A stretch of 48,109 bases of DNA from an uncultured Prevotellaceae bacterium. Lineage in GTDB: Bacteria; Bacteroidota; Bacteroidia; Bacteroidales; Muribaculaceae. A program made the translations under genes and the position numbers. Positions 38,338 through 40,535 of the stretch are shown piece by piece. Each line of letters begins with the position of its first letter. The first letter of the stretch is position 1. Location of the stretch: the NCBI GenBank assembly GCA_947165675.1, contig CAMVBJ010000024.1, positions 1 to 48,109 on the forward strand, read 5' to 3'. The notes beneath the pieces are model-generated. The model was not told where the DNA came from and did not search any database. It saw only the letters and a program-made list of their open reading frames with translations.

Positions 38338-38751
38338 ATGGAAGATCTGATAAGAATATTGCATGATGAGGGACTAACCCTGGTCGTCAAGAGCGAGGAT
38401 GGTAGGTTGCATCGTTTCAATCACCGCGGTGTAAAAGACTTGTTAGAACTTGTAACTCATCATTCAGATGTACTGAAGAATGCAATGATTGCCGATAAGG
38501 CCGTTGGGAAAGCAGCTGCCGCATGTATGGTTGTGGGTGGAGCCTTACATGTCCATGCCGACGTAATGAGCGAGCCCGCCCTTGCCATGCTGACGAGGCA
38601 CGGTGTTTTGAGCCAATACGGTCAACTGGTTGACCACATCATTAATCGCAGTGGTGATGACTGGTGCCCGATGGAGCGCTTGAGTCATGACATCGATAAT
38701 CCAAGAGACATCATACTGAAAATCAGTGATTTTTTTAAATCCATTAACTAA
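38338..38751 (+). CDS. DUF1893 protein
   Basis: A 137-aa soluble protein matching DUF1893: LHDEGLTLVVKSEDGRLHRFNHRGVKDLLEL followed by DKAVGKAAAACMVVGGALHVHADVMSEPALAMLTRHGV. The family has a cytidine-deaminase-like fold and no settled function. The start at 38338 (MEDLIRIL) is chosen because the longer frame to 38296 overlaps the upstream gene and adds an unconserved leader. It is probably co-transcribed with the nitroreductase gene. A terminator hairpin follows directly. Confidence 0.85.
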   Translation: MEDLIRILHDEGLTLVVKSEDGRLHRFNHRGVKDLLELVTHHSDVLKNAMIADKAVGKAAAACMVVGGALHVHADVMSEPALAMLTRHGVLSQYGQLVDHIINRSGDDWCPMERLSHDIDNPRDIILKISDFFKSIN

Positions 38752-38787
38752 AACGCCGAGCCTCAACGGTTCGACGTTTTCATTTTT
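38750..38787 (+). terminator. Terminator after the DUF1893 gene
   Basis: AAAACG...CGTTTT with inner CGA/TCG and CC/GG pairs around TCAAC, followed by CATTTTT. The stem starts at the stop codon. Confidence 0.65.
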
Positions 38788-38864
38788 AAACATCACTAAT
38801 TGTAACTGTATTGTGTCTAATGGCTGAATTAAAGTTTCACGTTTACTACTATTATAGACACATG

Positions 38865-38898
38865 AAAACTCCATTTTGCAACAACAAAACGGAGTTTT
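38865..38898. terminator. Second hairpin, probably bidirectional
   Basis: AAAACTCC-A-TTTTG (38865-38878) pairs with CAAAA-C-GGAGTTTT (38885-38898) around CAACAA. The A-rich and T-rich arms make it a possible terminator on both strands. No gene is seen between here and 39058. Confidence 0.6.
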
Positions 38899-39058
38899 AA
38901 CAAAACTTTAACAGTCCGTACCTATTGGTATCTTCAGTACTTTAACCTCACGCAAAGCCGCAAAGTCTTTTTACAGACAACTGTCAGTTTTTTGCCTACA
39001 ATTAACAGAATTGGCATCCGCTAACATTTGCATGAGACTCGATGAGCTAACAATTATA

Positions 39059-39429
39059 CTTATTGATTACCAGAGCAACCGCACCAAAATTAACATAATT
39101 TGATGTAGAACACCCGGAGGGTGACCTCTGAGTAACCCCTGGTAAGGCAATCCACTGAACAATAGCGCAGTGGGGTGCCTCACCAGGGGAAAACGCTCCA
39201 TCAACCCAAGTCGCCGGAGGCGGCCCCATGTGCTAAAAGCCGAAATGGGGTCGCCTCCAGCGACAAGCTATTCCTCACCATCACCCCCAGTGAATCAGAC
39301 TCCCTCGTTAACACTCGGCAGCCTGATTTACTGGGGGTTACTCAGATAGCCGCCCTTCGGGCGGCTAATACTCATTTTGTCAGCTAATGAGCAAATGTTA
39401 ATTTTGGCGCGGTTGCCCTTATTGATTAC
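39059..39429. mobile_element. 347-bp multi-hairpin MITE-like element with 12-bp target duplication
   Basis: The 12-mer CTTATTGATTAC occurs at 39059-39070 and again at 39418-39429, where it covers the prfA stop codon. Between the copies lies a 347-bp element (39071-39417) whose ends are 22-bp inverted repeats matching at 21 positions (39075-39096 and 39395-39416). Inside are hairpins at 39136-39189, 39210-39264 (18 of 20 paired), 39284-39337 (14 of 15) and 39347-39367 (9-bp perfect stem), plus CACCCGGAGGGTG near 39110. No believable protein is encoded. It reads as a non-autonomous insertion placed at the 3' end of prfA. Confidence 0.8.
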
Positions 39430-40535
39430 AACTCGGCTTCTTTGAGTTTTTCGGCATTCTCGGCTACGATGAGGTGGTCTATGCAATCTTGAATATCACC
39501 ATCCATGAACGCTGGCAGATTGTAGATAGTATATCCGATTCTGTGATCGGTAATGCGCCCTTGAGGATAGTTATAAGTTCTAATCTTGGCAGACCTGTCA
39601 CCTGTCGAAACAAGGGTCTTGCGACGCGAGGCAATATCATCCATGTACTTCTGGTGCTCGTGATCGTAAATGAATGTGCGTAATCGAGCCAGCGCACGCT
39701 CCTTGTTTTTAGGCTGGTCGCGGGTCTCGGTACACTCAATGAGAATTTCCTGCTGCTCACCCGTGTTGGGGTTAGTCCACATGTATCTCAACCTTACGCC
39801 GCTGTTCACCTTGTTCACGTTCTGGCCACCAGCGCCACCGCTACGGAAGGTATCCCACTTGATTTCACCTTCGTTGATATGCACATCAAAGGGTTCTGCC
39901 TCGGGCAGTACAGCCACACTCGCAGCGCTGGTGTGGACTCGGCCCTGGGTCTCGGTGACAGGGACGCGTTGCACACGATGAACACCAGACTCATACTTCA
40001 ATGTGCCATACACATTGTCACCCGTAATACTGAACACGACCTCCTTGAAACCTCCCACGGCACCTTCACTGCAACTGGACATTTGCACGTTCCAACCCTT
40101 GGTCTCACAGTAGCGGGTGTACATGCGAGCCAGGTCGCCGGCAAAGAGGGCAGCCTCGTCACCGCCAGTTCCCCCTCTGATCTCAAGCACCACGTTCTTG
40201 CTGTCCTCGGGGTCTTCGGGAATGAGCAGGAGTTTGATTTCTTCTTCGAGTTTAGGTACTTCAGTCTGGTTAGCTTCAATTTCCTCACGAGCCATTGTCC
40301 TCAAGTCTTCATCATTTTCAGTTTCCAGCACTGCCTTGGCCTGCTCGATATCTTCAAGCAACTTGCGGTAGCGATGGGTCGCATTAAGCAACGTTTCCAA
40401 ACTCTTATACTCCTTAGTGAGCTTGACATATCTTCGCTGGTCGGCAATGACATTGGGATCGGTAATGAGTGTACCGATTTCCTCAAATCTCGCATCCAGT
40501 CCGTCCAGTCGTTCAAGTAATGGTGATTGTGCCAT
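39426..40535 (-). CDS. prfA: Peptide chain release factor 1
   Basis: RF1 reads UAA and UAG stop codons and releases the finished peptide. The 369-aa protein has the PVT codon-recognition tripeptide (residues 192-194), which marks RF1 rather than RF2, and the catalytic GGQ (236-238) in RSGGAGGQNVNK. The N-terminal helical domain and C-terminal basic region (TYNYPQGRITDHRIGYTIYNLPAFMDGDI) are normal. Its stop codon lies inside the 12-bp repeat flanking the mobile element, so the insertion left the coding region intact but replaced its 3' untranslated region. Confidence 0.97.
   Translation of the reverse strand: MAQSPLLERLDGLDARFEEIGTLITDPNVIADQRRYVKLTKEYKSLETLLNATHRYRKLLEDIEQAKAVLETENDEDLRTMAREEIEANQTEVPKLEEEIKLLLIPEDPEDSKNVVLEIRGGTGGDEAALFAGDLARMYTRYCETKGWNVQMSSCSEGAVGGFKEVVFSITGDNVYGTLKYESGVHRVQRVPVTETQGRVHTSAASVAVLPEAEPFDVHINEGEIKWDTFRSGGAGGQNVNKVNSGVRLRYMWTNPNTGEQQEILIECTETRDQPKNKERALARLRTFIYDHEHQKYMDDIASRRKTLVSTGDRSAKIRTYNYPQGRITDHRIGYTIYNLPAFMDGDIQDCIDHLIVAENAEKLKEAEL

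Follow-up and report, generated by a model that had tools for sequence, protein, structure and literature searches.

The insertion at the 3' end of prfA in the window (the whole 48,109-nt stretch of DNA that was analysed) was best explained, with a probability of about 0.83, as a two-layer non-autonomous transposable element, with an outer layer bearing ISAs1-type ends and a REPIN-like core derived from a Y1 transposase unit. It consists of two nested elements, an ISAs1-ended outer shell and a symmetric hairpin core. Taken as a whole, the insertion is a structured, non-autonomous MITE of the ISAs1 type and adds to a known kind of element; its hairpins form part of a second, nested element related to the borders of Y1 transposase genes, a layering beyond the view of the first-pass annotation.

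Anatomy of the insertion and its ISAs1-type outer layer

The insertion spans 350 bp (39071-39420) between two convergent ORFs, directly behind prfA (39426-40535, minus strand), an intact ORF whose product NCBIfam assigned to peptide chain release factor 1 (above cutoff, with 481.9 and 454.4 bits). Its boundaries are the canonical ISAs1 ends CAG...CTG. The exact 12-bp direct repeat CTTATTGATTAC (39059-39070 and 39418-39429), the terminal inverted repeats, which are nearly perfect, and the successive hairpins all lay where the first-pass annotation had placed them, and the prfA stop codon (39426-39428) indeed fell within the right-hand 12-mer. The length of 347 bp and the 22-bp terminal inverted repeats (21 of 22 matching) given there were refined: the repeats are real and extend over 25 nt, of which 23 are complementary (39072-39096 and 39395-39419), in an element of 350 bp with canonical ISAs1 ends. 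The left arm (39071-39107, plus strand) carries the ISAs1-type terminal inverted repeat CAGAGCAACCGCACCAAAATTAACAT, comparable to CAGGGCAACCGCATCAAAATTAGCAT in the element at locus L064 of genome G004, and the right arm (39367-39420, minus strand) carries its counterpart.

The target duplication is the 9-bp sequence ATTGATTAC, with a left copy (39062-39070) inside the left 12-mer and a right copy (39421-39429) inside the right one, where it holds the stop codon. An apparent 12 bp arose because three bases of the element's own right end, which reads CTT instead of CTG, match the left flank by chance. The duplication, earlier regarded as unusually long for common MITE families, is therefore really 9 bp, in the ISAs1 range of 9-10 bp, and an autonomous ISAs1 element (L104) has an apparent 12 bp that arises in the same way. 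A novel transposition chemistry behind a 12-bp duplication was accordingly rejected. Duplications of 10-12 bp are made by IS4/IS231-type elements; an origin of this type was dropped, as an ISAs1 transposase was found beside the terminal repeat.

No protein had been expected inside the insertion, and none was recognised: seven ORFs of at least 30 aa overlap it, the longest of 70 aa, and none was taken as a gene. The hairpins were as strong as first described: on either strand the 347 bp folded far better than shuffled versions (z = -13.97 and -14.82, with none of 100 shuffles per strand as stable). No Rfam family matched in the window at the gathering threshold.

The terminal repeat has the consensus CAGGGCAACCGC(A/G)(C/T)CAAAAT at both ends and was found with at most three mismatches in 12 of 101 genus genomes; the reversed control pattern occurred in none of those listed. 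At L064, the same repeat lies 5' of a transposase ORF assigned to ISAs1 by NCBIfam (281 bits; cutoff 70) and to DDE_Tnp_1 by Pfam. The G004 contig stops inside this element, with its right end unseen; the protein and the end are also found on a 7935-base record of Candidatus Sodaliphilus limicaballi. With this protein alone as query, no relative was detected at E ≤ 1e-10 in the window's own genome (98% complete), and among 36 other genus members G004 was the only one with a match. The outer layer therefore looks dormant in the present genome, where a Y1 gene is still present.

Among the 42 ISAs1 loci returned, 27 were examined, 17 had both terminal repeats (element length 1.16-1.35 kb) and 16 were testable. 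Direct repeats of 9-12 bp flanked 11 of these 16, against a maximum of 6 bp in mismatched flank pairs (n = 240), and the other five had 0, 0, 0, 0 and 4 bp. One Persicobacter genome accounts for five of the 11, as copies whose ends are more distant; for elements with CAGGGCAACCGC-type ends only, repeats of 9-12 bp were present in 6 of 10. Concerning the miniature copies, 23 loci were scanned, of which 15, from seven genomes, had both ends and eight did not show both. The duplication was exactly 9 bp at canonical boundaries in 8 of the 15, 9-11 bp in 10 when a one-base slide of the boundary was allowed (maximum of 6 in 210 mismatched pairs), and 8-12 bp in 11 with a three-base slide (6, 4, 0 and 0 bp in the others; one of the 210 mismatched pairs reached 8). 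Five copies (L006, L066, L078, L082 and L088) showed no 9-bp repeat even when the boundary was allowed to shift by one base from the canonical ends. The earlier expectation of multiple copies, each with its own 12-bp duplication, thus held for the copies and not for the length.

Accordingly, the ends of the window element match those of autonomous ISAs1 elements, and its 9-bp duplication has the length that these elements produce. As in ISAs1-family insertion sequences and MITEs, the same terminal repeat stands at both ends, with a duplication of 9-10 bp. The window element differs from the insertion sequences in being gene-less, and therefore movable only in trans, as MITEs are, in its length (350 bp, not 1.16-1.35 kb), in holding a structured core and in residing in a genome without a relative of the G004 transposase at E ≤ 1e-10. 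The part of PMC5756416 available to us holds no usable duplication length for the ISAs1 family.

A DNA search of the window's own genome returned 25 matching pieces, grouped by eye into 11 places on contigs C24 (the window), C53, C37 (two), C5 (two), C36, C14, C59, C6 and C42. At least one ISAs1-type end was kept at nine of them; the C14 and C42 copies had none of the 11 ISAs1-type end matches of this genome, and the C6 copy had lost its middle. Two of the copies contained, within the central palindrome, a third small element with ends AGGCTGTTGCAAAAC / TTGCAACAGCCT, giving three-level nesting (L005, about 1696-1876, G000:C5, copy C5:74741-75254; and L007, about 1644-1822, G000:C36). L002, L003 and L007 (G000:C53, C37 and C36) had in common a divergent right side, GTCTTCCCGTGCGTTAGCACGG..., where a further repeat seems to have been attached to the core.

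Of 61 genus genomes, own included, 59 gave a match to the prfA piece, five of them (G003, G017, G026, G029 and G087) a short one only, perhaps to a paralogue. Beside prfA, the element was absent from all 29 relatives examined (the best-scoring 29 of 58 relatives with a prfA match), including G118, which yet has copies elsewhere. Eighteen of the 29 kept, somewhere within the 1.5 kb compared, the window's intergenic block at about 38786-38913, which lies directly before the prfA stop in L180 and L181. The empty site anticipated at prfA was therefore found as far as the absence of the element is concerned, in relatives whose prfA identity of 80-85% makes them too distant to show the exact pre-insertion sequence. 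The element is a dispersed non-autonomous insertion, not a resident region, and the proposal of a structured non-autonomous element was borne out by its 11 places and by copies with their own target duplications. As a separate observation, the intergenic block (about 38757-38913) has a terminator-like hairpin and is found near prfA in 18 of the 29 relatives at a varying distance.

The hairpin core and its free-standing copies

The core occupies 259 bp (39108-39366) and is made of two inverted end-units flanking a central palindrome. The left unit (39108-39189, plus strand) comprises hp1 (CACCCGGAGGGTG; 39111-39123), the conserved unpaired linker GAGTAAC (39130-39136), which lies at the 5' foot of hp2, and hp2 itself (39136-39189) with a common A/C mismatch. 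The right unit (39284-39366, minus strand) contains hp2 (39284-39337) and hp1 (GCCGCCCTTCGGGCGGC; 39349-39365) in inverse orientation, and the central palindrome, hp3 (39210-39264), is a structure whose halves lie at both gene borders in Y1 loci. The two units scored 72.5 and 79.6 bits against the covariance model R1, values that are not independent, both units being among the 35 sequences used to build the model.

The R1 alignment contained 33 end-units from 17 Y1 loci and the two from the window; the units of L144, L159-L164, L166-L168 and all of L200-L211 were left out, L156 failed automatic closure, and the entry for the L146 right unit is three bases shorter. Seventeen base pairs were supported, with 95.0% of cells paired, and both sides had changed in at least one sequence for 14 of the 17. 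The covariation score was 0.627, compared with 0.167 in shuffled alignments (0 of 500 reached the observed value) and at most 0.133 in slid controls, the structure being derived from the alignment on which it was tested, which favours the score. Across the 35 end-units, hairpin sequences vary between species with the pairing kept. The foot T-A-A-C-C was invariant in 35 of 35 units except at its second A (31 of 35), and the mismatched position of the stem was A/C in 24 of the 35, another non-pair in five and a pair in six. Such a foot and stem mismatch are recognition marks in IS200/IS605 and REP hairpins, and the TAAC foot and mismatch of the core units may play the same role by analogy.

Many matches in relatives span the middle of the query only. 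With the R1 model (E ≤ 0.001), units were detected in 68 of 101 genus genomes, own included; the own genome has at least 18 units and others reach at least 45. These counts are lower bounds, based on the best 45 candidates per genome and strict filters. The comparison of units took in 102 of roughly 150 listed. Twenty regions were fetched around units, seven of them picked since a pair was already visible, and they showed a facing pair in 13 cases, a reversed pair in two and a single unit in five. The 13 facing pairs come from six genomes, and their outer span was 256-264 bp in 11 (274 and 345 bp in the others), the window core having 259. None of the 13 had ISAs1-type ends within 150 bp at up to five mismatches, compared with one mismatch at each end in the window. 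No target duplication was found in their flanks, where the longest common word was 6, within the null (up to 8).

Other arrangements were also seen. Composites resembling the one in the window, with other linkers, occur in G036, G018 and G025. L227 has, by eye, a seemingly decayed right arm. L219, L220, L222, L226 and L228 represent a core subfamily with short common outer flanks like TTGCCAGTCAAT ... TTGCCATAGTCA, and because these flanks are common to the cores, the mobile unit of this subfamily may be slightly longer than the core. In L072 (G118:C20, about 1690-1960), a composite copy stands just upstream of spaced identical repeats, GTCAGAGACCATCTTCCATTAAAACAAGGATTAAGAC, which resemble a CRISPR array; the spaced repeat is visible by eye, though a tandem-repeat scan of L072 found none.

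Y1 transposase genes and their inverted borders

On contig C42 of the own genome, core modules stand on both sides of a gene for a Y1 transposase of 149 aa (Pfam Y1_Tnp), which is single-copy in this genome and whose protein scored 55.5 bits with the IS200 model (cutoff 55) and 22 bits with the RAYT model (cutoff 80). Eighteen other Y1 loci of the genus, inspected by eye, had on their 5' side hp1, a GAGTAAC-like linker, hp2 and usually GTCGC...GCGACCCC, and on their 3' side the inverted series, apart from L156, with too little 3' sequence, and L144 and L160, which deviate in detail. The central palindrome of the window's core corresponds to the two gene-side borders brought together without the Y1 gene. 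Because the halves of the core flank, in inverted orientation, the single Y1 gene of its own genome, the core resembles a REPIN-type element derived from such a Y1 unit.

The inversion was tested on the 300 bp to either side of each gene, the downstream stretch being reverse-complemented for the comparison, against 200 dinucleotide shuffles. From 42 loci (the best 30 of the genus, own included, and 12 returned from the order), two without the tyrosine motif and two with short flanks were removed, and among the 38 tested, the inverted flanks beat all 200 shuffles in 34 (25 of 26 in the genus and 9 of 12 in the rest of the order). L205 and L210 were borderline (2 of 200 and 1 of 200), and inverted flanks were not found by this test in L164 and L208. 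Control ORFs, 84 in total (30 from the window, some possibly spurious, and 54 from the prfA loci, mutually homologous), scored at most 20, compared with 21-84 for 33 of the 37 full-flank Y1 loci. When 20 Y1 loci were compared, only three pairs had common outer flanking DNA beyond the unit, a fourth matching through repeats; for this reason, the Y1 gene seems to sit mostly at different places, within the approximately 1.1 kb compared. Tandem or reversed arrays of units, resembling BIME clusters, were seen beside Y1 genes at G096:C57 (18362-20057) and at L145, L146, L160, L200 and L211.

The unit-rich genomes G036, G116, G103 and G118 had no Y1 match at 1e-20 (G118 lying outside the 79 matched genomes), so that either some genomes lack a cognate Y1 enzyme or incomplete assemblies hid it from the search. 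An association between Y1 genes and units (19 of 19 compared with 49 of 82; Fisher p = 2.6e-4) was rejected as support: it is circular, because R1 was built from the flanks of 17 of the 19 loci, and its E-value cut was picked after the list was seen.

Beyond the genus, the end of the Y1 gene of G130, from another family of the order, had 14 matches in its own genome, four on the gene's contig and ten elsewhere, and that of G220, from yet another family, had 27, mostly of only about 40 bases, nine on its two Y1 contigs and 18 away from them. Six genomes were searched with each query, and the five other than its own gave no match. Three G130 regions contained pairs with hp1 inside and a variable linker. 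Beyond the genus, the plan is thus loosely kept, with genome-specific sequences.

Comparison with known systems and alternative explanations

REPINs are defined in PMC3116915, and as far as the available portions of that paper and of PMC6006769 describe REPINs and BIMEs, the core likewise has two inverted hairpin units around a spacer, its gene-less copies are dispersed and its units border a Y1 transposase gene. It differs from them in its unit of 82 nt with two hairpins and in its common central palindrome, which together bring the core to about 259 bp. The foot is TAAC, in which only the second A varies (kept in 31 of 35 units, the other three bases in all 35), compared with GT[AG]G in the REPs of these sources, and the Y1 protein scores below the RAYT cutoff and just above that of IS200. 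Of the features of a REPIN, dispersed pairs of inverted units and a Y1 gene bordered by those units were found, and the GT[AG]G foot and a RAYT-type protein were not. Because the canonical foot and protein are lacking, the core is REPIN-like and was not filed as a REPIN.

The TIRtrons and their TIRYT, RAYT-like proteins reported from Pseudomonas, Stenotrophomonas, Acidobacteria and others (PMC3733652, in the part available) also combine a Y1 transposase gene with long inverted repeat borders, and some of their families are dispersed; the present loci differ in their IS200-like proteins, their occurrence in Bacteroidales and their recurring multi-hairpin plan. A likeness in protein features was found with TnpA-Y1 subclass 1.2, as defined in the accessible sections of PMC6006769: HuH and tyrosine motifs, a length of mostly 146-151 aa (about 148 in the subclass) and an origin in Bacteroidetes. 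The HuH motif DH[IV]H was present in 33 of 40 Y1 proteins and the tyrosine motif Y---Q--HH in 40 of 40, the loci having been pre-filtered for Y[IV]--Q--H[HR] (2 of 42 dropped); the own protein, of 149 aa, has DHVH and YIINQKEHH. In contrast to the WQ motif of subclass 1.2, the residue after W, readable in 37 of the 40 proteins, was G in 30, E in three, A in three and S in one, but Q in none, for which reason the proteins would be called only subclass-1.2-like. The table seen in PMC6006769 gives no REP for subclass 1.2, whereas the Y1 genes described here have elaborate inverted borders. Among the matches listed in the open-licence literature, judged by title or the start of the abstract, no report on structured ends of subclass 1.2 genes or on ISAs1 MITEs in Bacteroidales was found, which is weak evidence of absence.

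Four other explanations were weighed. That the core moved only as cargo of other elements, next to a domesticated or inactive Y1 protein without effect on the units, is unlikely: it would fit the single-copy Y1 gene of the own genome and the unit-rich genomes without a detected Y1 gene, and it is at odds with the copies specific to the resident Y1 ends in G130 (14, ten on other contigs) and G220 (27, 18 away). There is little chance that the insertion is a single ISAs1-derived MITE with the hairpins as its own filler, the same repeat having been captured by the surroundings of Y1 genes. The ISAs1-type ends kept at 9 of 11 places in the own genome and the composites with other linkers in G036, G018 and G025 speak for such a MITE, but facing cores lack ISAs1 ends in 13 of 13 regions and measure 256-264 bp in 11 of them, units border Y1 genes on both sides at mostly different loci, and the hairpin sequences differ between species with their pairing kept.

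A reading of the hairpins as RNA, be it a mobile gene for a structured noncoding RNA, as suggested in the first-pass annotation, or an RNA regulator, gained no support and is very improbable; the covariation would then reflect an RNA. The strong covariation and the strong fold of both strands agree with it, although they do not distinguish RNA from hairpins of single-stranded DNA, and promoter-like matches in 38700-39600 number six where shuffles give 1.6 (sd 1.4), with one match lying at 39401-39374, within the element and on its minus strand. Against an RNA stand the lack of an Rfam family, the about equal folding of both strands and a mirror-symmetric structure which also appears to form both borders of the Y1 gene, as expected of DNA ends. 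Finally, a resident structured 3' region or prfA terminator without any insertion, which the position directly behind prfA between convergent ORFs might suggest, has a practically negligible probability, given the 29 of 29 relatives without the element at prfA, 18 of which keep the neighbouring intergenic block within 1.5 kb, and the copies elsewhere with 9-bp duplications; the terminator reading was rejected on the former ground.

Under the preferred two-layer reading, the outer layer is by its anatomy a miniature element that an ISAs1-type DDE transposase, producing target duplications of 9-10 bp, would have moved in trans; it landed at the 3' end of prfA, where the duplication preserved the stop codon. 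The core corresponds to both borders, structured and inverted relative to each other, of a gene for an IS200-like Y1 transposase, with the gene absent. Most likely, the core would move by single-strand transposition: the Y1 protein would recognise hp2 through the mismatch in its stem and the unpaired TAAC at its 5' foot, and transfer core-sized single strands with no target duplication. The core presumably came to sit within an ISAs1-type element, in that order of nesting, and the composite would then have been copied by ISAs1 transposition.

More broadly, and with odds slightly better than even, these loci may represent an unrecognised Bacteroidales system of the REP/REPIN type, in which a clade of IS200-like, subclass-1.2-like Y1 proteins (W followed by G, E or A) is encoded by genes with inverted multi-hairpin ends, in which a TAAC-type foot is conserved and the recognition stem carries a mismatch. 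Genome-specific, gene-less copies would be produced by single-strand transposition, and some would travel further as cargo of DDE-type MITEs, one repeat thus using two unrelated chemistries.

Work on REP repeats and single-strand transposases has mostly concerned Proteobacteria. The present observations bear on how far the partnership of REP-like repeats with single-strand transposases extends and on how such repeats spread: such a partnership would exist in many members of one Bacteroidales genus and in some other families, and compensatory pairing changes there would mark the structure that is recognised. The composite resembles a REPIN-type repeat that a DDE transposase has amplified, and two distinct signatures, a 9-bp duplication or none, can be read from the sequences. 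The partner transposase group is one tabulated as REP-less in the part of PMC6006769 available, and the core points to a REPIN-like Bacteroidales system tied to Y1 proteins for which that part gives no link to repeats.
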